Below, one piece after another: positions 366-15,951 of a stretch of 63,177 bases of DNA (positions are counted from its first letter, which is position 1; the number at the start of each line of letters is the position of its first letter). A program made the position numbers and the translations under genes. Under the pieces are notes generated by a model, which worked only from the letters and a program-made list of their open reading frames with translations, was not told the DNA's origin and ran no database searches. The stretch is from positions 1-63,177 of the forward strand of contig QHVM01000046.1 of the NCBI GenBank assembly GCA_003223555.1, written 5' to 3'. The DNA is from Acidobacteriota bacterium (lineage in GTDB: Bacteria > Acidobacteriota > Vicinamibacteria > Fen-336).

Positions 366-713
366 TGACTGTTCGGGAGACTGAGATGACTGCTTCGGCA
401 AGACGACTGTGGCCGTTGGGCGGCACGATGATCGCCACGCTTCATTCGATGATTTGGAACGGCGGAGGTCGCGGCCGGTAAGGCGTCGCTAGGTGGGCGC
501 GCGATTGACTGACGAGGACGACCGATGGTTCGAACTTCCGTGCGCCGCTCGGGCCGGCGCGCGTCGACTCTAACGCGAATTTGACGAGATCAGGGCCTCC
601 GCCGGCCTAGCCAGGTTGTGGCCCAAGCGTGGTCATTCTGATTCTCGGGTGCACCCTCAGACTGTTACCACGCTGCTACCGTTTCTCAACCTGCTGGCTG
701 GTTCCAGGGTGTC
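366..713. other. gene-free stretch left of the IS element
   Basis: About 350 bases between the propeller gene and the IS630 insertion. No open frame with plausible codon use, no RNA gene and no clear terminator were seen. Base composition is less GC-rich than the rest of the window. It ends in the CTA half of the CTAG insertion target. Confidence 0.5.
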
Positions 714-715
714 TA

Positions 716-732
716 GTGTAGCGTCTCCTAAA
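716..732 (+). repeat. left terminal inverted repeat of IS630 element
   Basis: GTGTAGCGTCTCCTAAA; pairs with the right end except for a two-base inversion (CT versus TC) near the inner edge. Confidence 0.85.
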
Positions 733-781
733 TAGATGGAACATGCGATGGTCCCAACTCGTTTCGTAGAGTGTGGGATTC

Positions 782-1831
782 ATGCCGACGGAGTGCGTGG
801 TCAGCGCAGCGGATCGAGCAGTGCTGGAGCAGTGGCTGCGGTCACCGACGGTGCCTCAGGAATGGGGCTTGCGGGCCAGGATCCTGTTGGCGACCGCAGC
901 GGGCGAGGGCGTTCGTGCTATGGCACGGCGGCTGGACGTCTCGCCCACCACCGTGTGTCTCTGGCGTGAGCGGTACCGAGAGGAGGGCTTGGCGGGCCTG
1001 CGCACGCAGCCCCGCCCCGGCAGACCTCGCCGGATCAGTCCAGCCAAGGAGCGCTCGGTTGTGGAAGCCACTCTGCGTCCGCCGAAAGTAGCGACCCACT
1101 GGAGCGCGCGGCGACTCGCCAAGGAAGTGGGACTCAGTTCCGCCACGGTTCACCGCATCTGGCAGAAGTACGGCCTGCAGCCGCACCGAGTGAAGCGCTT
1201 CAAGTTCAGCACCGATCCCAACTTCGACAGTAAGCTGGCGGATGTAATCGGGCTCTACCTTGACCCGCCCGAGCGGGCCCTGGTGTTGTGCGTCGACGAG
1301 AAGTCCCAGATTCAGGCCTTGAATCGGACCCAACCGATCCTGCCCTTGCGCTCGGATCTGCCCACGCGTATGACCCACGACTACGAACGTCACGGCACGA
1401 CCAGCCTGTTCGCCGCTCTTGAGGTGACCAGCGGAAAGGTCCACGGGCGCTGCTTCCCGAAGCACACTCACATGGAGTTCATCGACTTCTTGAAGTCGAT
1501 CGACCGCCGATACCGGCGACGGGAGATCCACCTCATCTGCGACAACTACGGCACCCACAAACACCCCGCGGTCCGGGCCTGGCTCGCCGAGCATCCCCGC
1601 TTCCAGCTGCACTTCACTCCCACCAGCGCCTCCTGGCTCAACCTCGTGGAGCGCTGGTTCGGCCTCATCACGGAACAAACCATCCGGCGGGGAAGCTTCG
1701 ACACTGTCTGGAAGCTCGAGCGCGCCATTCATCGCTTCATCGCCAACTGGAACGAGGACGCCAAGCCCTTCCGTTGGACGGCTTCTCCTCGAAGCATCAA
1801 GGCCAAGATCCGCCGTGTTGCAGAGATTTGA
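782..1831 (+). CDS. IS630-family transposase
   Basis: Catalyses cut-and-paste transposition of the surrounding element. The first ~110 residues hold helix-turn-helix DNA-binding segments (AMARRLDVSPTTVCLWRERY and a second around SARRLAKEVGLSSATVHRIW). The C-terminal DDE superfamily endonuclease domain shows the three acidic catalytic positions in VDEKSQ, CDNYGTHK and WLNLVERWFG. The length of about 350 residues is normal for the family. ATG at 782 is preferred; an in-frame GTG at 773 would add MGF. The frame ends inside the right inverted repeat, as in many IS630 elements. No frameshift is seen. Confidence 0.92.
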   Translation: MPTECVVSAADRAVLEQWLRSPTVPQEWGLRARILLATAAGEGVRAMARRLDVSPTTVCLWRERYREEGLAGLRTQPRPGRPRRISPAKERSVVEATLRPPKVATHWSARRLAKEVGLSSATVHRIWQKYGLQPHRVKRFKFSTDPNFDSKLADVIGLYLDPPERALVLCVDEKSQIQALNRTQPILPLRSDLPTRMTHDYERHGTTSLFAALEVTSGKVHGRCFPKHTHMEFIDFLKSIDRRYRRREIHLICDNYGTHKHPAVRAWLAEHPRFQLHFTPTSASWLNLVERWFGLITEQTIRRGSFDTVWKLERAIHRFIANWNEDAKPFRWTASPRSIKAKIRRVAEI

Positions 1832-1843
1832 GAGACGCTACAC
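1827..1843 (-). repeat. right terminal inverted repeat of IS630 element
   Basis: Reverse complement reads GTGTAGCGTCTCTCAAA, matching the left end; overlaps the last codons of the transposase. Confidence 0.85.
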
Positions 1844-1917
1844 TAGTCCTCGGTGCTGCGCTTGTCGTCAGAAGGGCTTGAGTCCCCTGGAACCGTCGGA
1901 GATATCTCGCCACTCGG

Positions 1918-1979
1918 GTTGCTAATCTGTTGTGCGGGTAAACCTGCACCGGGGGTTCGAATCCCCCCCCTGTCCGCCA
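1918..1979 (+). pseudogene. 3' half of tRNA-Ser(GCU), probable attachment-site remnant
   Basis: From the anticodon loop onward the sequence is a class II tRNA-Ser: loop TTGCTAA with anticodon GCU, then a long variable-arm hairpin (GTGC...GCAC), a T arm GGGGG-TTCGAAT-CCCCC, acceptor strand CCTGTCC, discriminator G and CCA. Upstream there is no matching 5' acceptor strand (GGACAGG), no D arm and no proper anticodon 5' stem, so the 5' half is absent. The C run after the T loop has eight Cs where seven would be expected, which also argues against function. A break in the anticodon loop is characteristic of integrase-mediated insertion into a tRNA gene. The IS630 end lies 75 bases away and did not cause the truncation. 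Confidence 0.8.
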
Positions 1980-2026
1980 AGTGCTGATGCGCGTCTTCGG
2001 CGGGGCCATGACCCCCCATTCCCTCG

Positions 2027-2424
2027 CTACCGCCGGAGGTCTTCCACTCGGCATCCGACGGAGCGCTTGGTGATCTCTGGATCGCCGGTGAGCAAAACCG
2101 CCCTGCGAGCCGCGGCCGTGGCAATAGCAAAGGCGTCCGCATAAGCGAGCGGATGCGTCGCTTTGATCCGGGCAGCAGCTAGGACGCGTTCCGGCGTCAC
2201 GGCATCCAGGGCCAATATCGGGCGGAGCATGGCCAGCGTGACGTCCGCCTCCTTTCCCCCGGCCGCCCGGTGGATGGTGTAGTACACCTCGCCTAGGTTG
2301 ATCCAGCTCATGGCCGCCCACGCCTCAGAACTTGCCGGACCCGGCGCGCGGCTGGCGAAGAGCCTTCGAGAAACCGCAGGACCGCCCACGAATCGAGGCA
2401 GTAGGAGCGAACGCGGTCGGCCAT
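2027..2424 (-). pseudogene. PIN-domain (VapC-like) toxin, frameshifted
   Basis: VapC-type toxins are Mg-dependent ribonucleases restrained by a cognate antitoxin. The N-terminal frame starts at an ATG that overlaps the antitoxin stop (TGATG) and reads MADRVRSYCLDSWAVLRFLE, stopping at 2308. The rest continues in another frame from about 2311 (AMSWINLGEVYYTI ... YADAFAIATA ... LLTGDPEI). Joined, they give ~132 residues with the usual PIN acidic positions: D near residue 11, E in NLGEVYY, D in YADAF and D in TGDPEI. The two parts are separated by a single-base-type frame change in GTGGGCGGCC. It may be inactivated, a sequence error, or translated as two pieces. Confidence 0.75.
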
Positions 2425-2642
2425 CAGCGGCGACGCTCAGCCCGACGGTCCTCCTCCAGCGCCTTCACCAAACGGTGGCCGGCCAACCGCCCCATCAGTG
2501 CATCGGGCGAAGCCAGGCGTTCGACTCGGATGGCGTTGCCATCCCGTGAGAACGTGACCTCGTCCCCCGGCTCGAGATTCACGGCCTCCCGAAAGGCTTT
2601 TGGGATGACAACCTGCCCCTTGCGGCCAACGCGGTGAGTCAT
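2424..2642 (-). CDS. AbrB/SpoVT-fold (VapB-like) antitoxin
   Basis: A 72-residue DNA-binding antitoxin. The first ~45 residues carry the swapped-hairpin AbrB signature: VGRKGQVVIPKAFREAVNLE followed by PGDEVTFSRDGNAIRVERL. The charged C-terminal tail (KALEEDRRAERRR) is where such antitoxins usually bind the toxin. Its stop codon overlaps the toxin start by one base, so the two are translationally coupled, antitoxin first. Pairs of this type normally autorepress through the AbrB domain. The toxin frame is broken, so this antitoxin may be an orphan. Confidence 0.85.
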   Translation of the reverse strand: MTHRVGRKGQVVIPKAFREAVNLEPGDEVTFSRDGNAIRVERLASPDALMGRLAGHRLVKALEEDRRAERRR

Positions 2643-2884
2643 ACCGCATAGTATAACCGCAAGCGACGCCGAGGGCCATGAGACCTAGCTTGTCCGCGGT
2701 TCACCCCTGGCGCCGTACCAGCTCGCTCTTCGGAGCCCGAGCAGGCGGCTTAGCTCGACGCTCCACGACTGCAGGCCGTCGCGCTGCTCCTTGAGAGGGC
2801 GATTCGGGACTCGGCAGGACTCGACCTTGATCTTGACGTTCTCCCCGCCAACCGTTAATGTCGCCGCCCGCCCACGGACTCGGC

Positions 2885-3636
2885 ATGAAGAAGAAGATCC
2901 CGATCGCACTCGCCGTCGTCGTCGCGCTGCCGCTCCTCGGCGTGGGCGCCCTGTTCGCGACGAGGGAGAAGCCCGACGGCCCCCGGGTCGAGGTCGGGCC
3001 CGGCGTGGTCGGGGTCGACACCGGTGGGGCGTACGCCTGGATCGTGCGTACCCCGCACGGCGCGGTGCTGGTCGACGCCGGGCTCGATGCCAAGGGCGCC
3101 GCCATCCTGGCCGAACTAAAGGCCGAGGGCGTGCCGCCGGACCAGGTCCACGCTGTCCTCATCACCCATGGCCACCCCGACCACTACGCAGCCGCCGGGC
3201 TCTTCCCGAAGGCCAGGGTCATGGCCGGCTCCGGCGACCTGGCGATGATCCGCGGCGACAAGGCCCACTACGCCACCTTCGGCAGGATCATGAGCGCCGT
3301 GATGCCGTTGCCGCCGGGCCCCCCGGCGGTGACGGGGCTCCGCGGCGACGAGCAGCTGGAGTTCGACGGCGCCCGGTTCAGGGTGATCGCCACCCCCGGC
3401 CACTGCCGGGCAGCGTGATGTACCTCTACCGGGACGTGCTCTTCACGGGCGACTCGCTGATGCGCAAGAAGGACGGCGTCGCCATTGCGCCCTCCCTGTT
3501 CTCCGAGGATTCCGAGAGGAACCGCGCCTCACTCCGGGCGCTCGAGCCGCTGGCGTTCGACAAGATCGCCGACGGCCACGCCGGCGTCACCACCGGCGCC
3601 AAGGGCAAGCTCGCCCGCTTCCTCGCGGGCTCGTGA
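2885..3636 (+). pseudogene. metallo-beta-lactamase-fold hydrolase, one-base frameshift
   Basis: Begins MKKKIPIALAVVVALPLLG, a signal peptide or N-terminal anchor, so the product is exported. The MBL metal-binding motif THGHPDHYAAA is intact, and the next ligand lies in IATPGHC. At about 3410 the frame changes: the first frame ends with CRAA and a stop at 3418, while the continuation (GSVMYLYRDVLFTGDSLMRK ... IADGHAGV) is in the next frame to 3636. Restoring one C in CTGCC-GGGCAG, giving the palindrome CTGCCCGGGCAG, rejoins them as ATPGHCPGSVMYLY. The intact product would be ~250 residues, normal for a glyoxalase II-like hydrolase. Substrate is unknown. Real frameshift and sequence error cannot be separated here. 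Confidence 0.8.
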
Positions 3637-3695
3637 ACGCGTCCGGCCCGCGACGTCACGAGACTGGTCGAGGGTCGTGAGATGATGTCGGGTTC

Positions 3696-5210
3696 ATGCC
3701 CGACCCCGCCTCGTCTCCTGATCCGCCGCGCTTTGATCCGGCCCGCCGCCGTGCGGTCACGTTCGCGCTGGCGCTCATCAGCGCCACCGCCGCGCTCGAG
3801 GGCACGGTGGTGTCCACCGCCATGCCGACGATCGTCGGCGACCTCCAGGGCCTGTCCCTCTACTCCTGGGTCTTCTCGGTCTTCCTCCTGACCTCCACCG
3901 TCACGATGCCGCTCTATGGGCGGCTGGCCGACATCTACGGGCGGCGCCGCGTGCTGCTGCTGGCGACCAGCCTGTTCCTCATCGGCGGGCTCGCGTGCGC
4001 GTTCGCGCGCTCGATGCCGCAGCTCGTGGCGGCGCGCGGCCTCCAGGGGCTCGGCGCCGGGGGACTCCTGCCGGTGGCGATCGCCGTCGTCGCCGACCTG
4101 TATGCGCTCCGCGAGCGGGCGCGCATCCAGGCGCTGTTCAGCGCGATCTGGGGCACCGCGAGCCTCATCGGTCCGCTCCTCGGTGCGTTCCTGACGCTGA
4201 GCCTCGGCTGGCGGTCGATCTTCCTGGTGATCGTGCCGCTCGGCCTCGTATCCCTCGCGCTCGAGGCCACGCAGATGCGCGAGTCGCGCGCCTCGCGCCC
4301 CGATCCGTTCGACTGGGTGGGTGGGGCAACGCTCACGGCCGGCGTGTCCGCGCTGCTGCTCGCCACCCTGCGCGAAGCGGGGAGTGGCGGGCACACCCGG
4401 CCACGTCTGGCGCTCATCGCCGTCGGCGTCGCGCTGCTGGCCGCCTTCGCGCGCCAGCAGGTGCGGCGGGAGCACCCCTTGGTGCCGCTCACGCTGCTCA
4501 CGCATCGGGACACGGCGGCGCCGTACCTGGCGGGCGCGCTGGTGGGGACGACGATCTTCGGTGTCGACACCTTCGTCCCCCTCTTCGTCCAGGGGGCGCG
4601 CGGGGGAACGGCCGCCGCGGCGGGAGCGGTCGTGACGCCGATCATGTTCTTCTGGGCGACTTCGGCCTCGCTCGGCACGCGCGCGCTCGTGCGCTACGGC
4701 TTCCGCGCCACCGCCCACGTGGGGTCGCTCCTGGTCACCGCGGGCTGCGCCGCGCTGCTGGCCGCCGCGCTGGCCGAGGCCCGCGTCGCGTGGATCAGCG
4801 CCGCTTGCGCCCTCATCGGCATGGGCCTGGGACCCCTGGCCACGTCGCAGATGCTGGCCGTGCAGCACGCCGCGCCCGAGAGCCAGCGGGGTGTGGCGAG
4901 CAGCCTGGTCCCCTTCTTCCGCGCGCTCGGCGGCGCGCTCGGCGTCGGCACGCTGGGCGGGCTGTTGTCGTCGGGCCTCGACCGCCACCTGGGCCCGGCG
5001 GCCGACGTGGCCGGCCGTCTCCTGGCGGGTCGCGAGACCGTCCTGCCGCCCGGGGTCACGCCGCTCGGGGTGCGCCATGCGATCGCCGGCTCCCTGCTGC
5101 CCGTCTTCGGCGTCATGCTGGTCCTCGCCATCGTCAACGTGGCCATCGTCGGCCGCTTCCCTGGCCGGGCCCACGATCCGGCCGAGCAGGTCCCCCGTCC
5201 AGCCGCTTGA
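3696..5210 (+). CDS. MFS drug-exporter-like transporter (DHA2/EmrB-QacA type)
   Basis: A 504-residue integral inner-membrane protein with about 14 hydrophobic segments, the DHA2 arrangement. Near the N-terminus TALEGTVVSTAMPTIVGDL-like sequence matches the family signature at the end of helix 1, and YGRLADIYGRRRVLL is the conserved MFS loop 2-3 motif. MAARGLQGLGAGGLLPV-like sequence matches the helix 4 region. Members couple proton influx to export of hydrophobic drugs or metabolites; the substrate cannot be inferred. It follows the broken MBL gene by 59 bases on the same strand. No regulator is adjacent. Confidence 0.88.
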   Translation: MPDPASSPDPPRFDPARRRAVTFALALISATAALEGTVVSTAMPTIVGDLQGLSLYSWVFSVFLLTSTVTMPLYGRLADIYGRRRVLLLATSLFLIGGLACAFARSMPQLVAARGLQGLGAGGLLPVAIAVVADLYALRERARIQALFSAIWGTASLIGPLLGAFLTLSLGWRSIFLVIVPLGLVSLALEATQMRESRASRPDPFDWVGGATLTAGVSALLLATLREAGSGGHTRPRLALIAVGVALLAAFARQQVRREHPLVPLTLLTHRDTAAPYLAGALVGTTIFGVDTFVPLFVQGARGGTAAAAGAVVTPIMFFWATSASLGTRALVRYGFRATAHVGSLLVTAGCAALLAAALAEARVAWISAACALIGMGLGPLATSQMLAVQHAAPESQRGVASSLVPFFRALGGALGVGTLGGLLSSGLDRHLGPAADVAGRLLAGRETVLPPGVTPLGVRHAIAGSLLPVFGVMLVLAIVNVAIVGRFPGRAHDPAEQVPRPAA

Positions 5211-5271
5211 ACACCATCTGGCGACCTGAGGAAAGGCAGGACTCGAGCCCGCTGCCGAACGTTACCGGGGC

Positions 5272-5352
5272 GTGGAGGTGCGCGTGAACGACCGTAACTC
5301 GACCGTCCGGATCTGGATCGACGAGAGCGCGGACGCGCAGGAGGGGAAGTGA
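5272..5352 (+). CDS. very short open frame coupled to the next gene
   Basis: A ~26-residue frame from GTG 5272 (or GTG 5278/5284) ends VNDRNSTVRIWIDESADAQE plus GK, and its stop lies one base before the ATG of the next gene (TGAGATG). The tight spacing suggests coupled translation. The frame is open back to 5230, so it could instead be the tail of a decayed gene. The product is not recognised. Confidence 0.35.
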   Translation: MEVRVNDRNSTVRIWIDESADAQEGK

Positions 5353-5353
5353 G

Positions 5354-5629
5354 ATGCTGCTCAAGATCGGCGTGGTCCTCGCCGCGATCCCGGTGACCCT
5401 GGGAGCCGTGGTGGCCGGCACCGGCGTGATGGTCGTGGACGTGAAGGACTCGGACGGCACGCGCATCGTGGTGCCGGTCCCGTTCGACCTCGCCCGCCAG
5501 GCACTGCGCCAGGCCCGCGACGGCCGCGTCTCGCCGGCCGATCTGGTGGCGGCGCTACGCCGGGCGCGCCTGACGCGCCTCGCCGACGTGCGCGACGGCG
5601 GCGATCACGTGAGGATCACGATCTGGTGA
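5354..5629 (+). CDS. small membrane-anchored protein of unknown function
   Basis: 91 residues. An N-terminal hydrophobic segment (GVVLAAIPVTLGAVVAG) is a membrane anchor or signal, followed by a short soluble domain beginning VMVVDVKDSDGTRIVVPVPF and ending DGGDHVRITIW. The ATG follows the stop of the upstream short frame almost immediately. No family function is recognised. The charged middle (ALRQARDGRVSPADLVAALR) looks helical. It ends just before a convergent gene. Confidence 0.6.
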   Translation: MLLKIGVVLAAIPVTLGAVVAGTGVMVVDVKDSDGTRIVVPVPFDLARQALRQARDGRVSPADLVAALRRARLTRLADVRDGGDHVRITIW

Positions 5630-5649
5630 TCTGAGCCGCCGCGGACCGG

Positions 5650-6036
5650 TCAGTCGGTCTTCTGGACCAGCTCCTCGACGACGGAGAGCCAGCCGCGCAG
5701 CTCGGCCGCGGTCGGCGCCAGCTCGTAGGCATGGTGGTGGCAGGCCCGGCTCAGCGCCGACCAGGCATGGCCGGCGCGCGCGGCGAGGTCCGCATCTTCC
5801 AGGTAGGTTCGCAGGCAGATGAGCTGGACCCTCATGGGGCAGCGCTGGAGGTCGAGCGTGCGGCGCTCCCACAGCCGCTGCACGGCGGCCTCCAGGGCCC
5901 GGCACCCGAGCAGGGCCGAGGCTCGGGGCCACAGGCCCGCCGTGTCCGGGTCGACGCGACCGAGCATGGCTCGGGCCAGGCTCAGCACGTTGCGGGGGCC
6001 GTCGTCGCCTCTTCTCAATTCAGCCCCCGGAGCCAC
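5650..6036 (-). CDS. small helical protein partnered with the SMC-like ATPase (possible HEPN)
   Basis: 128 residues from a GTG that overlaps the ATPase stop by about 20 bases; a TTG about 15 bases further in is an alternative. The sequence is predicted mostly helical and Leu/Ala-rich, with no signal or membrane segment. The C-terminal half contains SALSRACHHHAYELAPTAAE, in which R-A-C-H-H-H fits the loose Rx4-6H pattern of HEPN ribonucleases and the following YEL/helix resembles HEPN helix 4. That match is short and is inference only. Overlap with the ATPase indicates one transcription unit and probably a functional pair. Other cysteines (GCRAL, RCPM, ICL) are not arranged as a zinc site. Confidence 0.65.
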   Translation of the reverse strand: MAPGAELRRGDDGPRNVLSLARAMLGRVDPDTAGLWPRASALLGCRALEAAVQRLWERRTLDLQRCPMRVQLICLRTYLEDADLAARAGHAWSALSRACHHHAYELAPTAAELRGWLSVVEELVQKTD

Positions 6037-8459
6037 GCCGCGAGCTTGCTCGCCAGGCGCACGAGGTCGACCGCCTCCGCCGGCGGGATCTCACCGCCCT
6101 CCTCGCAGCGCCGCAGCGTATCGGCAAGGGAAGCTCCGGCGCCGCGTTGGAGGCGCTCGCGCACCTCCCCGCCGCGGGCGACGTCGTCGAAGAGGGCGAG
6201 GGCGGCGAGGCCGGTCAGGTGCCCGGCCTCGCTCAAGGTCCGCTCGACCGAGGCGTGACCCTCTCCGCGGTCCAGCCGCCGGCGACGCACCACCTCCATG
6301 CACGTCGCCTCGAGGGCGAGCCGGCAGAGGCCCGGAACCACATGCGCGGCGGCGGAGGAAGGCAGCTCGGCCGTGCTGGCGACGGCGAGGGCATCTTCGA
6401 GGTAGCGCCCGACCGGATCGCCGGCCCGGCGCAGCTCGACGATCGACCCCTCCCGACGCGTTACCTCGAGGATCTCGGCCGCGATGTCCAGCCGGCGCAC
6501 GGCCTCGGGGAGACGGTCGTCGTGGGTGAAGACCACGACCTGGCGGTCCGTGGAGGCGCTCTGGAGGACGCGGGCCAGGCCGTCGACCCGGGCCGGGTCC
6601 ATGGACTGGACGGGATCGTCGATCACGATGAAGCGGAACGGGCTCTCGGGGAGCGTGGCGCGGGGGACGAAGAGGCTGAGGGCGAGGGAGTGCAGCTCGC
6701 CCTGGCTCATCACGCCGAGGGCGGCGCCCGCGACGCCGTCGACGGTGACGTCGAGGACCACGCGGCGTCGCGTGCCGTCGCCGGTGAGCTGGATCCGTCC
6801 CAGCTCCACGTGGCTCTGCTGGCGGAGGCGCTCCCAGATCCCCGCCGCTTTCTCGGCGATCGGCCCGAAGCGGTCGTCACGGATCCCGGCCGCCGCCTTC
6901 TTCAGCCAGGTCTCCGCCGGCTTGATGCGCTTGAGGTCGCCGACTCCGCGCACGGCCTCGCGCGCCCCGGCCAGCCAGCCCGCGACCTCCGCCACCACGG
7001 GACGCCAGGCGTCCTCCCGGCGATCGAGCCTCACGCGCGCCGCCTCCCGCAGGCGAAGGACCGCCTTGCCCAGCGGCCCGCTCGCGGATTCCACGTGGTT
7101 GGCGAGGTCCCCGAGATCGTCGATCGACTGCGCCCGGACCCAGACCTCCAGCGCGGCGACCAGCTCCCGCAGGTCCAGCCCCGCCTCGCTCGCACGCTGG
7201 AGCGCCTCGCCCTTCAGGACCGCCAGCTCCTCCCACCGCCGCCGGGCGGCTTCGGCGCGCTCGTAGGCGGCCTCCGCGTCCCGCGCCGTTTCCCGAAGGC
7301 GCGCCACGGCGGTCCGCTGCCGCTTGTCCCAGCCGCGGTCGAGGGCGAGCTCGCGCCCGCAGACCGGGCAGTCGCCGTCGCCATGGGTGGCATGGAAGGC
7401 GAGCGCGAGCTCGAGGAGCTTCGCCGCGTCGCGGGAGCGGGCGGCCGGCGTGCTCTGGGCGAAGGTCAGGGCCCCCGCCGCCCCGCGCATCTCGGCCACG
7501 GCGTCCGCCACCCGAACCGGGTCGGGCGGCTCCAGGCCTGCGATCGCCCGCAGCACGTCGGCTTCCGCCGTGCCCGTCCCCGTCGAGCCGGCGGCGGTGA
7601 CGACCGCTTCCACGGCGGCGAGATCCCATTCCTTGCCCTCGATGGCCGCGACTACCCGCCGCGCCCGTTTGTCGTCGACCTCCCGCAGCCGTTCGACCAG
7701 GCGATCCCGCCCCTCGGTCGCGTCCTTGAGCGCCTTCTCCCGCGAGCGGCGGGCCTCCTGGAGCGCGCCCTGGGCTTCGACGAGGTCCTCCAGACCCAGG
7801 ATGGAGGAAAGGGCGTCGTAAAGCTTCGAGGGTCCTTCGTCGAGCAGCGATCCCAGCTCGTTGTAGGACAGGAACGGGCGATGCGTACGCAGCGCCGAGG
7901 TCCAGCCGAGAGAGTCCAGGTCGGACTTCGGCCGGCCGGGTAGCTCGACCACGACGTCCGCGACTTCGAAGTCGGCCTCGGCCTCCCACCGGCGCGAAAC
8001 CACGCAGGGTCGCGGCTCCCCCTCCACGAGGAAGGTGGCGCTCAGGAAGGCCGCGGGATGGTGGAGGTTCCGCCAGCCGTCACGCCAGACGGCGGCGCGC
8101 TCTTTCCAGCGCAGGCTGTCGCCCGTGAGCAGCACCTCGAGGGCTTCGGCGAAGCTCGATTTGCCGGAGCCGTTGCGCCCCACGACCAGGGTGAGACCGG
8201 GGCCCGGCGCCAGCTCCAGGGTCTGCGGGCGGCCGATGCCGCGGAAGCCCTCGACGGCGACCGAGCGCAGGAAGGTGCCGGTCGCCGCCGGAGACGGCGG
8301 CGCCGCGAGCGGCCGGGGCGAGGCAGAGCTGCCGGCCAGCTGCGCCTCGAGACCGTCGCGGCCTTCGAGGGCGCCGAGGACGACGTCGCTCCAACCGTCG
8401 GCGCGGGCGCCGTCCGCCTCGAGCCGCGCCAGCACGATTCGCCGCAGGCCGGGATCCAT
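6015..8459 (-). CDS. SMC/Rad50-like ABC ATPase with zinc-hook motif
   Basis: About 814 residues starting at ATG 8459; an upstream in-frame extension to 8513 is less likely. Walker A is VVGRNGSGKSSF near residue 94. A charged coiled-coil arm follows, with a single CPVC (residues ~364-367, context DGDCPVCGREL) at its apex, which is the Rad50-type zinc hook. A second coiled-coil returns to an ABC signature MSQGELHSLAL (~584), Walker B FRFIVIDDPVQSMD (~609) and the switch region VVVFTHDDR (~645). About 130 helical residues follow, with LDRGEGHASVE. It is shorter than SbcC/Rad50 and has no adjacent Mre11/SbcD nuclease. The tail and the overlapping small gene suggest a stand-alone DNA- or nucleotide-sensing ATPase system, possibly defensive. 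Confidence 0.85.
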   Translation of the reverse strand: MDPGLRRIVLARLEADGARADGWSDVVLGALEGRDGLEAQLAGSSASPRPLAAPPSPAATGTFLRSVAVEGFRGIGRPQTLELAPGPGLTLVVGRNGSGKSSFAEALEVLLTGDSLRWKERAAVWRDGWRNLHHPAAFLSATFLVEGEPRPCVVSRRWEAEADFEVADVVVELPGRPKSDLDSLGWTSALRTHRPFLSYNELGSLLDEGPSKLYDALSSILGLEDLVEAQGALQEARRSREKALKDATEGRDRLVERLREVDDKRARRVVAAIEGKEWDLAAVEAVVTAAGSTGTGTAEADVLRAIAGLEPPDPVRVADAVAEMRGAAGALTFAQSTPAARSRDAAKLLELALAFHATHGDGDCPVCGRELALDRGWDKRQRTAVARLRETARDAEAAYERAEAARRRWEELAVLKGEALQRASEAGLDLRELVAALEVWVRAQSIDDLGDLANHVESASGPLGKAVLRLREAARVRLDRREDAWRPVVAEVAGWLAGAREAVRGVGDLKRIKPAETWLKKAAAGIRDDRFGPIAEKAAGIWERLRQQSHVELGRIQLTGDGTRRRVVLDVTVDGVAGAALGVMSQGELHSLALSLFVPRATLPESPFRFIVIDDPVQSMDPARVDGLARVLQSASTDRQVVVFTHDDRLPEAVRRLDIAAEILEVTRREGSIVELRRAGDPVGRYLEDALAVASTAELPSSAAAHVVPGLCRLALEATCMEVVRRRRLDRGEGHASVERTLSEAGHLTGLAALALFDDVARGGEVRERLQRGAGASLADTLRRCEEGGEIPPAEAVDLVRLASKLAAWLRGLN

Positions 8460-8599
8460 CTGCCTAGAGTCTACTGCGGCAGCCGAAGCGGTCGTTCGGC
8501 CGCGACCGGCCATCTTCCTCGAGGTGGCGGACTTCGACTACGATTACCGGCGGGCCACACCTACGTCGGCCACTGCGAGCCGCGCGTGCCCCTGATCTG

Positions 8600-9226
8600 A
8601 TGCGCACGAACCTCCGCCGGGCGGCCGTTCTGGCCGTCGCGCTCCTCCTCTCCGTCGGACCGTCCGCCCATCCGCTCGATTCGGAAGCCGAACGGATCGT
8701 CGCCGCCCTCGGCCTCCGGCCAGGACTGCGGGTGGCCGACGTGGGCACGGGGAACGGGGACTGGGCGGAACGCATCGGCCGCGAGGTGGGGGAGACGGGG
8801 CACGTCTACGCCACGGAGGTCGATCGCGACAAACTCCAGACGGTCGACGCACGGCTGAAGGAGGCGGGCCTGAAGAACGTGACCACCATCCTCGGAACCC
8901 AGGAGGATACCGGCCTGCCCCCCGGGTGCTGCGATGCGATCCTGCTGCGCATGGTCTATCACCACTTCACCGACCCCGCACGGATGCGGGTCAGCCTGCG
9001 CTCGGCCCTTCGCCGGGGCGCTCCCCTCGTGGTCATCGACACGGAGCCCCAGAAGAACTGGCGGCGCCTCGAAGGGGTTCCCGACCGCGGCGGGCACGGC
9101 ATCAAGCAGGAGGACCTGGTGCGCGAGATGACCGCGGACGGCTTCGAGGTGGTGGCGCGGCACGACGACTGGCCCGGCGACGGCGCCCGCTACTGCGTGG
9201 TCTTCCGTCGGACGAACGGATCGTAG
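8600..9226 (+). CDS. exported class I SAM-dependent methyltransferase
   Basis: 208 residues with an N-terminal signal peptide (RRAAVLAVALLLSVGPSAHP). The Rossmann methyltransferase core shows motif I VADVGTGNGDWAERIGREV, an acidic residue closing strand 2 (YATEVDR), and a later GCCDAILLRMVYHHF segment. The C-terminus ends GARYCVVFRRTNGS. A methyltransferase with a signal peptide is unexpected because SAM is cytoplasmic, but such proteins are common in Acidobacteria and Planctomycetes. The substrate is unknown. It is divergent from the SMC-like ATPase with a 140-base gap. Confidence 0.8.
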   Translation: MRTNLRRAAVLAVALLLSVGPSAHPLDSEAERIVAALGLRPGLRVADVGTGNGDWAERIGREVGETGHVYATEVDRDKLQTVDARLKEAGLKNVTTILGTQEDTGLPPGCCDAILLRMVYHHFTDPARMRVSLRSALRRGAPLVVIDTEPQKNWRRLEGVPDRGGHGIKQEDLVREMTADGFEVVARHDDWPGDGARYCVVFRRTNGS

Positions 9227-9282
9227 CCTCGAGCCTCGCCGCGGGGCTCGGCGGTCTGAGACAATGGCCCAGGAGGTCTCCC

Positions 9283-9732
9283 ATGCTGAGGCGATTCGTC
9301 TTCGTCGCCGTTGCCGCCGCTCTCGCGGCCTCACCCGCGCTGGCCGACAAGGGCAAGGGAAAGTCCAAGGGGCGGGGCCGGGAGGGGGGAGTCGTCGAGG
9401 AGAGGGGCCGGCGTGAGGTCGTGGTGTTCAACGACCGCGACCGCGAGGCCGTACGGACGTACTGGGTGCAGACCTACGGGCCGGGCAACTGCCCGCCCGG
9501 CCTGGCCAAGAAGCACAACGGCTGCCTGCCCCCCGGCCTCGCGAAGAGGCGATACGTCGTCGGCCGGCCCCTGCCGGCCTCGGTCAGGGTCGAGCCGCTG
9601 CCGCCGGTCCTCGTGACGCGGCTCGGCCCGCCGCCCGCGGGATACGAGTACGCCGTGGTGGACGGCGATGTCGTCAAGCTGGCGGTCGGCACGAGACTCG
9701 TCGTCGACGCGATCAACGCCATCCTCCGCTGA
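9283..9732 (+). CDS. RcnB-like secreted small protein
   Basis: 149 residues from ATG 9283, which is preceded by an AGGAGGT ribosome-binding site. A signal peptide (RRFVFVAVAAALAASPALA) is followed by a Lys/Gly/Arg-rich basic stretch. The C-terminal domain carries NCPPGLAKKHNGCLPPGLAK and PPAGYEYAVVDGDVVKLAV, typical of RcnB/CigR-family periplasmic proteins. E. coli RcnB affects nickel/cobalt balance, but the function of other family members is largely unknown. It sits 23 bases before the enolase-superfamily gene on the same strand. Confidence 0.75.
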   Translation: MLRRFVFVAVAAALAASPALADKGKGKSKGRGREGGVVEERGRREVVVFNDRDREAVRTYWVQTYGPGNCPPGLAKKHNGCLPPGLAKRRYVVGRPLPASVRVEPLPPVLVTRLGPPPAGYEYAVVDGDVVKLAVGTRLVVDAINAILR

Positions 9733-9755
9733 CATCGTTCCGGCCGGAGGATCTC

Positions 9756-11117
9756 ATGCAACGCCGCGACGTCCTGCGATGGCTGTCGTCTGGAGTGGGC
9801 GCGGGGGGAGTCGCCTTCGCGCCGTCCCGCGGACTCGCGTTCCAACCGCCCTCGGCGGCCGCGCCGGCGGCGCGCGGCCTTCCGCCGCTGCGCATCACGG
9901 ACGTCAAGACCGTCCTGACCGCGCCCAACGGGATCCGGCTGGTCGTGGTCAAGGTGACCACGAGCGAGCCCGGCCTCTATGGCGTGGGCTGCGCGACCTT
10001 CACCCAGCGCGCCTACGCCGTGGACACCGCGGTCGAGAAGTACCTGCGGCCGTTCCTCCTCGGACGGAACCCCGACGAGATCGAGGACATCTGGCAGTCC
10101 AGCTACGTGAGCTCGTACTGGCGGAACGGCCCCGTCCTCTTCAACGCGATGAGCGGCGTCGACGAGGCGCTGTGGGACATCAAGGCCAAGCGAGCGAGCA
10201 TGCCGCTCTACCAGCTCCTGGGGGGAAAGGTCCGCAAGGGCGCCGACCTCTATTACCACGCGAGCGGGCGCGACTTCGCCGAGGTGGAGGACCAGGTCCG
10301 CTGGGCCGTGGAGCGGGGCTTCCGGCACGTCCGCATCCAGGTCGCGGTGGAGGGGGTGTCCACCTACGGCGCGGGCGGTGCCGCGGGCGCCGCGGCCGCG
10401 GGGGAGGACGGCCCCACCAACCCGACCCGGGTCTGGGAGCCGTCGGCCTACGTCCGGCTGGTCCCGAGGCTGTTCGAGCACATCCGGGCCAAGGTCGGCG
10501 AGGAGGTCGAGCTGCTGCACGACGTCCACGAGCGCGTCACGCTCCCGCAGGCCGTGCAACTGTGCAAGGAGCTGGAGAAGTACCGGCCGTTCTTCATCGA
10601 GGACCCGCTGCCGCCCGAGGAGAACGAGCACTTCCGGATCCTGCGCCAGCAGACGAGCGCGCCCCTGGCCATGGGAGAGCTGTTCAACACCCAGCACGAG
10701 TACGTCCCCCTCGTCGCCGGGCGCCTCGTCGATTTCATCCGGTGCCACGTCTCGCAGATCGGCGGGCTCAGCATGGCGCGCAAGGTGGCCGCGCTCTGCG
10801 AGTTCTTTGGCGTGCGCACGGCCTGGCACGGGCCGGGCGACACTTCACCGGTCGGGCACGCGTCGCAGCTGGCCCTGGAGCTGGCGAGCTACAACTTCGG
10901 CATCCACGAGGGCGCGGGCTTCCCCCCGGAGACGCGCGACGTGTTCCGCGGCTGCCCGGAGGTCAAGGACGGCTACATGCTCGCCAGCGAGGCGCCCGGG
11001 CACGGGATCGAGGTGGACGAGAAGCTGGCCGCGAAGTTCCCGTATCCCGAAGGACCGACCTTCGATTACAACTGGGGGCGGACGCGCCGCCGGGACGGCA
11101 CGGTGATCCGTCCGTAG
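9756..11117 (+). CDS. enolase-superfamily dehydratase, mannonate dehydratase/RspA-like, Tat-exported
   Basis: 453 residues. The N-terminus RRDVLRWLSSGVGAGGVAFA is a twin-arginine-type signal, so a folded enzyme is probably exported. The barrel carries the expected Mg ligands in order: LLHDVHERVTLPQA (D and H as in ManD enzymes), FFIEDPLPPEENEHF (E) and MGELFNTQHEYVPL (E). These are followed by CHVSQIGGLS and TAWHGPGDTSPVGHA. Characterised relatives dehydrate D-mannonate or D-gluconate, or belong to the poorly active RspA subgroup. The exact acid substrate cannot be read from sequence. A Tat signal on this family is recurrent in Acidobacteria and Planctomycetes. Confidence 0.85.
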   Translation: MQRRDVLRWLSSGVGAGGVAFAPSRGLAFQPPSAAAPAARGLPPLRITDVKTVLTAPNGIRLVVVKVTTSEPGLYGVGCATFTQRAYAVDTAVEKYLRPFLLGRNPDEIEDIWQSSYVSSYWRNGPVLFNAMSGVDEALWDIKAKRASMPLYQLLGGKVRKGADLYYHASGRDFAEVEDQVRWAVERGFRHVRIQVAVEGVSTYGAGGAAGAAAAGEDGPTNPTRVWEPSAYVRLVPRLFEHIRAKVGEEVELLHDVHERVTLPQAVQLCKELEKYRPFFIEDPLPPEENEHFRILRQQTSAPLAMGELFNTQHEYVPLVAGRLVDFIRCHVSQIGGLSMARKVAALCEFFGVRTAWHGPGDTSPVGHASQLALELASYNFGIHEGAGFPPETRDVFRGCPEVKDGYMLASEAPGHGIEVDEKLAAKFPYPEGPTFDYNWGRTRRRDGTVIRP

Positions 11118-11122
11118 CGGCC

Positions 11123-11716
11123 TCACTCCGCCCGGTAGCCGACGAAGATGAACTTGCCCTGCGTCTGCTGCAGGCGCACCTGGGCGGTGGCCGCGGTCTG
11201 GCCGCTCGCGCCGTCGCGCAGGATCAGGTTGTAGGTCTGGCCTTCGGTCGTCGACCAGTCGACGATGTACAGCGCACCGCTCTGGTCGATGGGCAGGTCG
11301 ATGCCTTCCTCGCTGGCCAGCTCCTTCTCCGCGATGAGCTGCACGCCGCTCGCTTCCACCCGGCGCACCTTGAGGCTCACCAGGTCCCTGCGCTTGAGCG
11401 TGTCCACCTCGATCCGGGGGGCGAAGACGACCGTCTTGGCCACGCCCACCGCGTCCGAGGAGGCCGGAGGCGCCGACATGAAGGGTCCGGAGGGCGGAAC
11501 GGCCGGGCGCGATCGCAGCTCGGTCACACCCGTTTCGACGGCCTTCAGCGCGCCTTTCATGGCGTCCAGGGCCTCGTCCCTCTGCCGCGCCCTGGCCTCC
11601 AGCGCGGCCACCTCGCTCTGCAAGCGATCCAGCTCTGCCCGAAGCGCCGATACGTCCGGCGAAGGCGCCTGCGGCGCCAGCAGCACGGTCAGGACGAGCG
11701 GCAGCGGATCGAGCAT
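11123..11716 (-). CDS. secreted coiled-coil protein of unknown function
   Basis: About 197 residues. The ATG at 11716 is preferred over 11722 because AGGAGG lies six bases upstream of it. A short hydrophobic signal (PLPLVLTVLLAPQAP) precedes a heptad-rich coiled coil (DVSALRAELDRLQSEVAALE and onward), then a Pro/Ser linker. The C-terminal half is beta-rich: VFAPRIEVDTLKRRDLVSLK, then GKFIFVGYRAE at the end. No enzyme motif is seen. It is convergent with the dehydratase gene, with only five bases between stops. Confidence 0.65.
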   Translation of the reverse strand: MLDPLPLVLTVLLAPQAPSPDVSALRAELDRLQSEVAALEARARQRDEALDAMKGALKAVETGVTELRSRPAVPPSGPFMSAPPASSDAVGVAKTVVFAPRIEVDTLKRRDLVSLKVRRVEASGVQLIAEKELASEEGIDLPIDQSGALYIVDWSTTEGQTYNLILRDGASGQTAATAQVRLQQTQGKFIFVGYRAE

Positions 11717-11757
11717 GGTCATCCTCCTGTGCGGAGGCCAGCGGCCCCGCCGCTATC

Positions 11758-12366
11758 TTAGTGGAGCTGCAGGTAGGAGTACCCGACGCGCAGGTGCCCG
11801 GTGACCCGTTGATCGAGGCAAGCCAGGACAGCCAGGGTCGAGAGGGCGTGGGACAAGGCGAGAGGCACCAGGTTCGGATGGCGGTCGTAGATCCAGCACC
11901 ATGCGGCCGCGGCCACGAGCGTGACCGGAGCCAGGAACGGGTTGGGCAGGTGGAGCGCGCCGAAGACGGCGGCGGCGAGAGCGATGCCCTTGCCGCGCGA
12001 CGTGGCCGACTGGGCTTCCCGCAGCAGCACGGTCTGGAGCGCGAATTGCTGTCCCGCGCCCCATGGCACGAGAAAGGCGAGATCTTGCCAGGGCTGTTCT
12101 CGCCGGTGCAGGCTGCCGAGCGCGGATCCCGCCATGTAGACGGCGAGAACGGCCAGCAGCGTGAACGCGGCCGCGCCGCGCAGGGCCGGCCAGAAGGCGG
12201 ACCGGCGCAGGCCCCATTCTCCGGTAAGGACGGCCCGCCAGATCGAAAGACCCACGACGGCGGCCGTCACGAGCTGGCCGGCCCAGCGCGGGGTGAGGGG
12301 GGCGAGCACCCACGTGTAGCCGACGATGAGGGCCAGCATCGGCAGCGTGAACCTCAACCTGCCCAT
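11758..12366 (-). CDS. CPBP-type (Abi) membrane protein with degenerate active site
   Basis: 202 residues with about six hydrophobic segments. The last half resembles the CPBP/CAAX intramembrane protease fold: a helix with GAGQQFALQTVLLREAQSAT where active enzymes have EExxxR, then FGALHLPNPFLAP (the FxxxH motif) and LALSHALSTLAVL (the third motif). Two glutamines replace the two catalytic glutamates, so it is probably not an active protease of the known type. The histidines are kept. It is followed after 32 bases, upstream on the same strand, by SCO1 and mtoX, but no functional link is evident. Confidence 0.65.
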   Translation of the reverse strand: MGRLRFTLPMLALIVGYTWVLAPLTPRWAGQLVTAAVVGLSIWRAVLTGEWGLRRSAFWPALRGAAAFTLLAVLAVYMAGSALGSLHRREQPWQDLAFLVPWGAGQQFALQTVLLREAQSATSRGKGIALAAAVFGALHLPNPFLAPVTLVAAAAWCWIYDRHPNLVPLALSHALSTLAVLACLDQRVTGHLRVGYSYLQLH

Positions 12367-12398
12367 CGAGCGCTCTCGGGGCCGGCCCGCCGCCGAGC

Positions 12399-13133
12399 TC
12401 AGCGGGCGCTCGTAGCCGACCGAGCCGGATCCCCCTCGCTCCTCTGCTCCATCAGCAGCGTCTCGATGTCGCCCATGATCGACCGGGGGTGCAGGAACGT
12501 CGAGGTGTAGATCTCCCGGACATAGCCGGCCCGGTCGATGAGGAAGACCTTCAGGACATGGGAGAGCTGGCGCACCGGCAGGCCGGTCGACCGGTCCTCG
12601 GAGTAACGCACGTCCTGACCGAAGCCCTCCACGAGCGGCAGCAGGTCCTCGACCGAACGCGTGGTGAGGAAGAACCAGCGCAGCCCGCGGTCTTCCTCGA
12701 GCCGGCTGCCCGCGTATCGCTTCATCACCGACGGCGAGTCTCGCGCGGGATCGAAGCTCAGCGACACGAGCTGCACCTCGTCCCGCAGGGCCGGGTGGGC
12801 CTCGATCTCGTCTTTCAGACGGCCGAAGACCCGGTAGGCGAGCGGGCAGCCTTCCGGGTCCATGCAGCTCGTATAGATGAAGCCGAGGAGCGTGATCCGT
12901 TCCCGGGTGAACCGCGAGAGCGCCTCCACCCGCCCATCGACCGTGAGCACCCGTCCCTCGGGCGCTCGCATGATGCGGTGAAGCTCGTAGGTCCCCGGCT
13001 CGGGGGGAACAAACTCCAGCGGCGGCCGTGGCTCATCGGGCTGATCCGCGGAGGCGGGGACCGCCGCCCGCCCGGCCAGCCAGAGCGCGAACAGGGACGC
13101 GACGAGTGCATGGCGGCCGGCGCGCGTTCTCAC
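12399..13133 (-). CDS. SCO1/SenC-family copper chaperone
   Basis: 244 residues from a GTG overlapping the upstream mtoX stop (GTGA), so translation is coupled. The N-terminus is a signal peptide (LVASLFALWLAGRAAVPASA), placing it in the periplasm. The thioredoxin fold carries IYTSCMDPEGCPLAYRVFG, with copper-binding cysteines at residues 90 and 96, and QLSHVLKVFLIDRAGYV with the conserved His192. In most SCO proteins the cysteines are spaced CxxxC; here five residues separate them. Established for the methanethiol oxidase of Hyphomicrobium: a SCO1/SenC gene lies beside mtoX and is thought to deliver copper. Confidence 0.88.
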   Translation of the reverse strand: MRTRAGRHALVASLFALWLAGRAAVPASADQPDEPRPPLEFVPPEPGTYELHRIMRAPEGRVLTVDGRVEALSRFTRERITLLGFIYTSCMDPEGCPLAYRVFGRLKDEIEAHPALRDEVQLVSLSFDPARDSPSVMKRYAGSRLEEDRGLRWFFLTTRSVEDLLPLVEGFGQDVRYSEDRSTGLPVRQLSHVLKVFLIDRAGYVREIYTSTFLHPRSIMGDIETLLMEQRSEGDPARSATSAR

Positions 13134-14443
13134 CGGCGCGGCGCGGCGTACGCGGTACGGAGCACCTTCGACCCCAGCTTCATGTGGTGGGCGCGGCCCA
13201 GCTTCTCCCGGGTGAAGTCGACCTCGAAGGCCGGGGTCAGCTCCTTGCCGTCCCAGGTGAAGCCGCGCAGGAACTGCTCGTTGTCCGGGCCGGCCTTGTC
13301 CCAGTTGGCGAGGAGCGAGGACGTGATGTAGACACGCTTGCCGTCCCAGCTCTGCGAGATCATGTTGAGCTGCCGGCCGGTGTGCTTCTCGTAGGTCTGC
13401 TTCGGGGCGTGCGGATCCGAGAGATCGAAGTAGCGGGTCATGCCGTCCATGAACGTGTTTACCCAGAGTCCCTTGCCATCCCGGGTGATGCTGATGTCCA
13501 CCGGCAGGGGGATCTTCGCCGGGTCGCCGATGGTGGCCACCTCCTTCGCCTGCCACTGGCCTTTCGCGTCCTGCTCCACGAGCCAGAGCTTGGAGGTGAG
13601 CGCGGCGGCGGTCACCGCCCAGTTTGCGCCCGGAACGAGCGACCAGCGGATCTCCAGCGGCGCACCGGGGACCGCCATGACCTGCTTCGGCTTCATCGCC
13701 TTCAGGTCCCACACGACCATCGTGTTGCCGAAGCGCTTCATGGCCGCCTCGTCCTTGATGAGCTCGCCCAGCGGTCGCATGTAGTTCGCGTGGCCGGTGA
13801 AGCTCGACGTCAGCAGCGCGTTCTTCGTCGGGTTCACCGCCAGGTCATAGGCGTAGCCGTCTCCGCCGTTCCCGACCGGCATGGGATAGCTGGCGATGAA
13901 GTCGCCCTGGTTGTTGTAGAGCGCCATGCCGGTCACGCCGCCCTTGTCCTTGGTGTTGGAAAGAGCCTGGACCAGCATGCGGCCCGGCAGCGCGTAGTAG
14001 GTGTGGGGCCCGATGAACCCGGTCTTGGCGGCGAGATCCTTGATCGTCTTCAGGAGCCGGGGCCGGGCGGGGTCGGTCGCGATGTCGAACACGTAGACGT
14101 CGCTACCGTCCAGCCCGCCCGCCCAGATCTGCCGGCGATCGTCGGTGAAGCCCATGTGGTGGGCCTCGCCGCGCGTGCCGACCGGGACCTGGCTCAGCAC
14201 CTTGCCGTAGGTCTTCGATTTCGGGTCGACGTCCACGGTGACCAGCTTGTCCCAGCCGTCCCCGAGGCCCTCGACGCCCAGCGTCCAGACGTAGACGTAA
14301 TCCTCCTGCCCCTTGATGAGCTTGGCGATGTAGGGCGAGTTGCAGGTCTCGTCGCCATGGACGAGCGGCGCCGCGAGCAGCACGGCGACGGCGGCCGCGG
14401 CGGGAATCGCACGGGAAAGGAAGCGCAGATCGACGAGTCTCAT
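13130..14443 (-). CDS. mtoX: methanethiol oxidase (SBP56 / selenium-binding-protein family)
   Basis: 437 residues, with signal peptide (AIPAAAAVAVLLAAPLVHG) and ribosome-binding site GGGAGGG before the ATG. The mature part is the seven-bladed SBP56 propeller: ETCNSPYIAKLIKGQEDYVY at the start, RGEAHHMGFTDDRRQIWAGG, HANYMRPLGE, and a His-rich end (GRAHHMKLGSKVL). Bacterial SBP56 members with a signal peptide and SCO1 neighbour are known copper-dependent periplasmic methanethiol oxidases, converting CH3SH to formaldehyde, H2S and H2O2. The coupled SCO1 gene supports that assignment over the eukaryotic-type selenium-binding role. No MauG-like gene is nearby, unlike the Hyphomicrobium operon. Confidence 0.88.
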   Translation of the reverse strand: MRLVDLRFLSRAIPAAAAVAVLLAAPLVHGDETCNSPYIAKLIKGQEDYVYVWTLGVEGLGDGWDKLVTVDVDPKSKTYGKVLSQVPVGTRGEAHHMGFTDDRRQIWAGGLDGSDVYVFDIATDPARPRLLKTIKDLAAKTGFIGPHTYYALPGRMLVQALSNTKDKGGVTGMALYNNQGDFIASYPMPVGNGGDGYAYDLAVNPTKNALLTSSFTGHANYMRPLGELIKDEAAMKRFGNTMVVWDLKAMKPKQVMAVPGAPLEIRWSLVPGANWAVTAAALTSKLWLVEQDAKGQWQAKEVATIGDPAKIPLPVDISITRDGKGLWVNTFMDGMTRYFDLSDPHAPKQTYEKHTGRQLNMISQSWDGKRVYITSSLLANWDKAGPDNEQFLRGFTWDGKELTPAFEVDFTREKLGRAHHMKLGSKVLRTAYAAPRR

Positions 14444-14542
14444 GGCGGCCCTCCCTTTGTGGTGGACGATCGAAAGCTCTCGAGTCCCGGTTTTCCGGAC
14501 ATGCTACGCCGCGCCCGGGGTCGGATCAAGGATCGGTCTGGC

Positions 14543-15304
14543 CTAGCTCAGCTCGCGGACCCACACGTTCCGGTAACGCACCGGATTGCCGTGGTCCTGC
14601 AGCCCGAGGGGAAGCTTTTCCGGATGCGCCTTGTAGGGCGGACGGGCCTGGTGCGCGGTGGGACCGGTCAGCGCCTGGTTGTCCTGGACCAGCACGCCGT
14701 TGTGGAGAACGGTGGCGCGGGCGGGCCGCAGCAGCGCGCCGTCGGGGCCGAAGCGCGGCCCGTGGAACACGATGTCGTAGGTCTGCCACTCGCCGGGCGC
14801 ACGTGACGCGTTGACGAGCGGCGGCGACTGCCCGTACAGCGCCGCCGCCTGCCCGTCGGCGTAGGTCCGGCTCTGGTAGGAGTCGAGGACCTGGACCTCG
14901 TAGAGTCCCATCAGGAACACGCCGCTGTTGCCGCGCTCCTGACCCTCCCCGCTGGCCGGCGTGGGCGTGCGCCACTCCACGTGGAGCTGCGCGTCCCCGA
15001 AGGGCTGCTCGGTGTGGATCCCCCCCGTGCCCTTCACCACCTCCATGGCGCCGTTGTCGACCTTCCAGCCCGCCGCTCCCCCCTTGTCCGCGCGCCAGCG
15101 CGAAAGGTCCTTGCCGTCGAAGAGGACGACGGCGTCCGAGGGCGGCCGGCCCGGCTGGTCGGCGGTGCTGGCCGTGCCCGGGTCGACGACCCGCGGCAGG
15201 GGCCGGTTCATGTCGTGGATCGCCCACTCCTTCGGCGGCTGGGCGAAGGCGGCGAGAGCGAGAGCGGTGGCCGCGGCCGCGGCCAGGGCAGAGTGACGGA
15301 TCAT
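14543..15304 (-). CDS. secreted DUF1080 (3-keto-disaccharide hydrolase) domain protein
   Basis: 253 residues. ATG 15304 follows AGGAGGG. A signal peptide (HSALAAAAATALALAAFAQ) precedes a single concanavalin-like DUF1080 domain with VVLFDGKDLSRWRADKGG near its start, ERGNSGVFLMGLYEVQVLDS in the middle and HGNPVRYRNVWVREL at the end, the usual family signature. Some DUF1080 proteins hydrolyse 3-keto-glycosides, and many are extracellular carbohydrate-active proteins of unknown specificity. It stands alone between mtoX and a divergent lipoprotein gene. Confidence 0.88.
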   Translation of the reverse strand: MIRHSALAAAAATALALAAFAQPPKEWAIHDMNRPLPRVVDPGTASTADQPGRPPSDAVVLFDGKDLSRWRADKGGAAGWKVDNGAMEVVKGTGGIHTEQPFGDAQLHVEWRTPTPASGEGQERGNSGVFLMGLYEVQVLDSYQSRTYADGQAAALYGQSPPLVNASRAPGEWQTYDIVFHGPRFGPDGALLRPARATVLHNGVLVQDNQALTGPTAHQARPPYKAHPEKLPLGLQDHGNPVRYRNVWVRELS

Positions 15305-15408
15305 GGCGGTCTCCCTCCTGATTGCGGCGGCGAGTGTACCCCAGGGACGAGGCGGTCCGCGGAAGTCGTGCCGCCCGTGTCGGCAGGCTTGTTGCAATCG
15401 CCGTCGGC

Positions 15409-15945
15409 ATGGGTCGACTCAGCCCGGCCGCGGCGCTGCTGCTCGCGGCCACGGCCACGGGCGCCTGCCGGAGCCACCCGACGAATCCCGAGACGCCCGC
15501 GCCGACGCCGACCCCGCCCGCCGCGCCGACGCCGACCCCGACCGTGGCCGCCGTGTACGGCTGCGGCCTGCCCCGGGGGACGGGACTCGGCCGGAGCTGC
15601 CCCCGTTTGAACCCCTCGTTCGATGGCGAGGTCGACACCGCCATCCAGGAGGTGATCGACGACCACCCCGAGTACATCGATTTCCGGCGGGCCCGGGGCA
15701 GCCCGGGGAGCTACCACGTCCTGAACGGCCGCGACTACACCTACGAGGTGGTCGAGAACCTCCGCAAGATGGGCCTGTGCGCCCTCGACGACGGCAAGGA
15801 GATCGCGATCAAGAACGACAACAGCTTCTCCGACCAGTACGAGGTGCTGTCGTCGGAGAGCTTCATCATCCGCGGCCTGGCCAGCTACCGCGCCACGTGC
15901 TTCCCGGCCTGGGACGCGATCCCGCCCGCGGGGGACGATTCCTGA
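15409..15945 (+). CDS. lipoprotein of unknown function
   Basis: 178 residues from ATG 15409. The N-terminus (LSPAAALLLAATATGAC) looks like a type II signal with Cys as the acylated residue. A low-complexity Pro/Thr linker (TPAPTPTPPAAPTP-like, partly tandem) follows. The folded part contains four further cysteines (YGCGLPRG, SCPRL, GLCALDD, ATCFPAW), probably two disulfides. Motifs VDTAIQEVIDDHPEYIDF and NGRDYTYEVVENLRKMGLC are seen, but no family function is recognised. It is convergent with the S9 peptidase gene. Confidence 0.7.
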   Translation: MGRLSPAAALLLAATATGACRSHPTNPETPAPTPTPPAAPTPTPTVAAVYGCGLPRGTGLGRSCPRLNPSFDGEVDTAIQEVIDDHPEYIDFRRARGSPGSYHVLNGRDYTYEVVENLRKMGLCALDDGKEIAIKNDNSFSDQYEVLSSESFIIRGLASYRATCFPAWDAIPPAGDDS

Positions 15946-15951
15946 CCCGCC

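Follow-up and report, generated by a model that had tools for sequence, protein, structure and literature searches.

The window, by which we mean the whole analysed stretch of 63,177 nucleotides from a soil bacterium of the Vicinamibacteria (Acidobacteriota), contains an isolated 3' half of a tRNA-Ser(GCU) gene. The fragment is very probably the displaced 3' part of the chromosomal gene, left behind by an element with a tyrosine integrase that inserted in the anticodon loop. The insertion of elements into tRNA genes is an ordinary and well-known settling route in bacterial chromosomes. The window is the entire contig C97 of an assembly of 5.39 Mb in 151 contigs. For the coordinates of all features see Table 1.

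Table 1. Features of the window and of the complete element in the related genome G005 (contig C9, locus L137).
Feature	Location	Strand	Evidence or remark
3' part of a beta-propeller-like protein gene, truncated by the contig end	1–365	+	78% to G001:C578
IS630-type insertion sequence	713–1846	+	transposase 773–1831; DDE_3 1.3e-20
72 bases from the end of IS630 to the scar; proposed last element bases	1847–1918		site expected for the 5' half
3' half of tRNA-Ser(GCU), anticodon loop to CCA	1919–1979	+	homology to intact genes; proposed distal attachment site, displaced and decayed
PIN-domain toxin	2027–2389	-	PIN 5.3e-9; directly right of the scar
MazE/AbrB-type antitoxin	2424–2642	-	MazE_antitoxin 4e-14
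About 18 kb from the scar to the GAF-Fis gene	1980–20146		pieces common to the same-genus genome
GAF-Fis regulator gene, synteny anchor	20171–20902	+	follows intact tRNA-Ser(GCU) in three relatives
Intact tRNA-Ser(GGA)	G005:C9 600–692		family relative, complete 3.3-kb element to 4024
Integrase remnant, shortened	G005:C9 from 694		54% over 76 residues to G011 integrase
3' half of tRNA-Ser(GGA)	G005:C9 3962–4024		equals tRNA bases 31–93, 63/63 identical

The fragment comprises the anticodon loop, the 3' strand of the anticodon stem, the long variable arm, the T arm, the 3' strand of the acceptor stem and the CCA end. The anticodon is GCT, and both the long variable arm and the T arm are intact. 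The loop TTGCTAA opens with T1919, and A1979 closes the CCA. The earlier note had recognized an isolated 3' half of tRNA-Ser(GCU) here, and comparison with 14 relatives of the same order that possess the intact gene bears this out: the same 61–63 bases recur at 85–92% identity, which excludes a chance similarity. Against the gene of a same-genus genome (G001) the identity is 89% over gene positions 33–93 (E 2.2e-14), i.e. 11% of the bases differ. The 5' half is missing, as the earlier note had stated: homology begins at T1919, and the bases upstream give no acceptor stem. G1918 lies outside the match to the same-genus gene, and in each of the 14 relatives the match starts at window position 1917 or 1919. 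The 5' acceptor strand of the intact genes reads GGAGAGG or GGAGAGA. No similar strand was found at the right distance upstream of the fragment, where the best candidate forms 5 of 7 pairs and lies at the wrong distance.

The fragment also carries the extra base in the C run that the earlier note had reported. It has eight C, compared to seven C followed by TCTCC in 12 of the 14 relatives and CCCCC TC TCTCC in the remaining two. The acceptor strand reads TGTCC, compared to TCTCC in all 14. None of the relatives has either the inserted C or the TGTCC change; both are unique to the fragment, which fits a copy freed from selection. ARAGORN does not call a tRNA at 1919–1979, its sole call in the window being a tRNA-Glu at 26427–26501, and folding of the fragment RNA as a tRNA was rejected on a z-score of -0.53. 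An Rfam match on the opposite strand of the fragment (RF04351, presumably a model covering plastid serine tRNA) reached 52.6 bits, below the cut-off of 68. When 193 genomes of the class were searched with the full 93-base gene as query and up to four candidates per genome were scored, the 33–93 form gave a single match, the window fragment itself. A few matches in distant genomes cover only positions 43–93, 56–93, 60–93 or 63–93 of the gene and look like partial alignments of other tRNAs.

We propose the following mechanism. A tyrosine integrase would join the element to the tRNA-Ser(GCU) gene by recombination within the seven bases of the anticodon loop. The element would bring along its own 3' half and so make the gene whole again at the near (left) end, while the original 3' half would be moved to the far (right) end, where, being unused, it would gather at least two changes. 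We infer that this integration took place in the window's genome, that the intact gene sits in a gap between contigs and that everything left of 1919 belongs, or once belonged, to the element.

According to PMC4383910, a tyrosine integrase that acts at a tRNA gene leaves a restored gene and a displaced fragment. A 3' fragment was counted there in 3760 islands, versus a 5' fragment in 159, and the site is centred on the anticodon in 2083; the crossover subsites given are the anticodon loop, the T loop and the T/acceptor junction. The Islander criteria in the same text include an intact cognate tRNA on the same strand, an integrase in between and a length of 2–200 kb. With respect to the crossover subsite, the homology of our fragment opens at the first base of the anticodon loop. 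With respect to a terminal tDNA fragment outside conserved coding DNA, the nearest Pfam-supported genes end at 1831 and start at 2027. The fragment thus resembles the islands of subsite A (anticodon) as presented in PMC4383910, i.e. a 3' tDNA fragment broken at the loop and located at the far end of the element. In contrast to those islands, the fragment alone is visible here, and the intact tRNA, the integrase and the element would fall in the assembly gap. PMC9897764 treats partial tRNA genes of archaea and bacteria that integration has left behind. They share with our fragment an incomplete gene that results from integration; in the example given there, however, the complete copy and the intervening element are both known. 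Read in this way, the window fragment is a further example of an already known kind, the scar of integration into a tRNA gene.

The assembly itself points to missing sequence at this locus. All 36 tRNA matches in the assembly were read with ARAGORN, and the serine tRNAs among them are GGA, CGA and TGA. Neither an intact tRNA-Ser(GCU) nor its 5' half was found anywhere in the 151 contigs. Since the tRNAs for Lys, Asn, His, Trp and Ile are absent from the assembly as well, the lack of tRNA-Ser(GCU) is best read as missing sequence. AGC and AGU account for 64 of the 177 serine codons across six window genes, and the organism must therefore have a functional tRNA-Ser(GCU) that is encoded in DNA missing from the contigs. 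The DNA that flanks the gene upstream (76–81% to G001) is on contig C107, whose end is no more than one base away from the expected tRNA start; the assembly gap therefore has C107 on one side and C97 on the other. No second position that would link the window to a neighbouring contig was found in the genome for its first 21 bases. An assembly that holds neither the intact gene nor a 5' half would also be expected for a truly split tRNA gene, whose halves stem from separate genes and are joined as RNA. We consider this extremely improbable, because the end of C107 at the tRNA start and the absence of at least five further tRNA identities make missing data a sufficient explanation, and the acceptor strand of the fragment has one extra and one changed base.

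A candidate for the type of integrase involved was observed in the same-genus genome. In G001 the intact tRNA-Ser(GCU) lies near a contig end, and a convergent tyrosine integrase has its C-terminus in the next 200 bases. We call this fragment of 66 residues an integrase because of its match to a 444-residue frame of genome G011 (33 of 34 residues identical), which is itself a PF00589 integrase (1.2e-28). For the fragment alone Pfam made no call, PHROGs gave only a weak integrase match (E 0.025) and a comparison with solved structures returned nothing useful. No relative of it was found in the window's genome at E 0.01 or 0.001, among viral contigs or among plasmids; the phage search, at E up to 10, returned only tape-measure proteins among the matches listed. 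A phage collection searched with the DNA of the locus and viral contigs searched with the half-tRNA pattern likewise gave no match. Contig G001:C586 was considered as the missing front of the G001 integrase and discarded, as its end does not overlap with C328 and nothing ties the two together. Of the 14 contigs with an intact tRNA-Ser(GCU), four (G001, G003, G005 and G015) stop within 0.4 kb downstream of the tRNA and none within the same distance upstream, which fits a variable site within the limits set by small numbers and assembly effects.

The G001 integrase fragment has 23 matches in 16 of the 193 class genomes searched. At eight of the 19 loci besides G001 the match is convergent to a tRNA or a tRNA-like 3' end at a distance of at most 300 bases. 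The tRNAs concerned are Ser GGA, Arg ACG (twice), Asn, Lys (twice), Pro CGG and Thr CGT. The other 11 loci have no tRNA beside the match, and several of these matches are weak and probably not integrases. In seven of the eight tRNA-paired loci the contig stops no more than 5 kb away on the side of the element, which explains the contig break at the window locus. The finding also offers a possible reason for the breaks at tRNA genes, and for the apparent lack of essential tRNAs, in metagenome-assembled genomes of this group. Together with Ser GCU, targets such as Ser GGA and Arg ACG form a natural set for asking how related integrases switch their target tRNA, and the fragment points to a likely site of integration in a class of soil bacteria that has been little studied.

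The exception among the eight is the complete element in G005. It is the arrangement that we propose for the window, with a different serine tRNA as target and an integrase of related sequence. Its displaced 3' half begins two bases ahead of the anticodon loop (bases 33–39), and its interior holds a 418-residue frame without a Pfam match and a DUF433/DUF5615 pair. Both here and in the window a class II tRNA-Ser is broken in the same manner, and the integrase remnant is related to that of G001. The G005 element differs in its target, Ser(GGA), and in being complete, with a perfect repeat (63/63), a shortened integrase and the DUF433/DUF5615 pair. A similarity between window positions 1983–2027 and the interior of this element (3517–3564) was rejected as shared element DNA, since it extends over 48 bases at 79% with an E-value of only 5e-4. 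The window has one copy of this stretch, and an exact 17-base pattern derived from it finds only loci with the window's own copy; the similarity is perhaps a small dispersed repeat.

The earlier note had read the fragment as the far attachment site of an integrated element, and this stands in part, being well but indirectly supported. The break in the loop, the end of C107, the integrase in G001 and the G005 case speak for it. Against it, none of the ten PF00589 matches in the genome is located on C97 or C107, and neither an intact copy of the gene nor an element boundary was found in the assembly. The absence of a relative of the G001 integrase from this genome, the lack of an exact empty site among the relatives and the unfamiliar 18 kb to the right likewise count against it. 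The propeller gene and the IS630, seen in the earlier note as element cargo or later insertions, are at most candidate cargo.

To the left of the fragment, the 72 bases adjoining it have no DNA match in the relatives. The insertion sequence beyond them is bounded by terminal inverted repeats of 31 bases (713–743 and 1816–1846, 81% complementary), and its transposase matches IS630 family transposases on plasmids. The loss of the 5' half by some other rearrangement (a deletion, an inversion or an IS630-driven event), with a coincidental break in the loop and a functional gene elsewhere, could draw on this neighbourhood: the IS630 is separated from the fragment by just those 72 bases, and the locus is reordered relative to G001, where the counterparts of 3673–5638 and 5650–8502 are on separate contigs. 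We nevertheless regard it as unlikely. About 7 in 93 random breaks would fall in the 7-base loop, the same break occurs in G005 with a visible cause, and the insertion sequence has intact ends that stay clear of the tRNA.

At the left end of the window, the truncated gene at 1–365 has no Pfam match ('propeller' is the name given to it in the earlier note), and its counterpart in G001:C578 is a reading frame of 344 aa. Contig C137 of the window's genome matches the same part of G001:C578 and was considered as the left neighbour of the window. It was discarded, because it is a 52-kb contig with an internal, decayed copy and little similarity to the window. Positions 18557–19286 of C137 hold short collinear leftovers of the region that is whole in G001:C578, including a piece of the propeller-like gene; this is erosion through many deletions.

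Genome G011 provides a further case at a different tRNA. Contig G011:C67 contains half a tRNA-Arg(ACG) at 304–353 that starts in the anticodon stem and is directly followed by the full-length integrase. Aligned with the intact gene in the window's genome, it matches from base 28 onward. ARAGORN calls this stretch a tRNA, even though there is no match between its 5' half and that gene. The tRNA-Ser(GCU) of G001 and the half tRNA-Arg(ACG) of G011 have the stem ACAGA-N7-TCTGT in common, whereas the stem of G011's own tRNA-Ser(GCU) is CCAGG-N7-CCTGT. One integrase lineage in the family might thus recognize the sequence of the anticodon stem-loop and not a given tRNA, a tentative and rather doubtful idea that is drawn from two cases and a short stretch of protein. 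If it were true, the window remnant, which retains TCTGT, would be a target of the same lineage.

To the right of the fragment, the bases following the CCA are kept in none of the 14 relatives with an unbroken tRNA, and a base-exact empty site was not found among them. In G002, G004 and G012 the GAF-Fis gene lies about 170 bases after the intact tRNA-Ser(GCU), compared to about 18 kb from the scar here. G004 and G012 have a tRNA-Glu(CTC) further on, past GAF-Fis, and G012 is collinear with the window all the way from GAF-Fis to the end of the GlnRS gene. Relatives of GAF-Fis occur at nine loci in the named genomes. Three have tRNA-Ser(GCU) just upstream; the other six have none in the available upstream DNA, which is shorter than 3.2 kb in three of them. 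The DNA right of the scar is not simply the old flank. Parts of the 18-kb stretch are found in pieces on contigs C307, C425 and C590 of G001 and on contig C141 of G003.

These observations bear on a layered version of the integration reading, in which the fragment marks the boundary of two or more elements stacked at one tRNA, with the 18 kb as an older, eroded island and a younger element to the left. The displacement of GAF-Fis relative to the three relatives, the toxin-antitoxin pair adjoining the scar and the half tRNA-Arg of G011:C67 with its adjoining integrase are consistent with such stacking. No integrase match and no second tRNA fragment at the right end were found in the 18 kb, however, and the stretch is partly common to G001 and G003 and may therefore be backbone of the clade. 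We regard the layered version as a real possibility, if not the one we favour.

Within the same stretch of the window, a metallo-beta-lactamase-fold hydrolase gene at 2858–3636 appears to be frameshifted: its N-terminal frame runs to 3418 and the remainder is in another frame.

Several other tRNA genes of the window's genome (G000) are adjoined by integrase genes. At the start of contig C45 (1–1159) a tyrosine-integrase-like frame faces a tRNA-Sec (TCA) at 1061–1159 on the other strand, probably an element in the selenocysteine tRNA gene. Integrase domains on C56 (950–2019) and C23 (2359–3063), near the contig starts, are convergent to tRNA-Ala(GGC) and tRNA-Asp(GTC), respectively. The genome thus seems to carry several tRNA-integrated elements. 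On contig C127 (11090–15063) five Phage_integrase matches were observed within 4 kb, on both strands.
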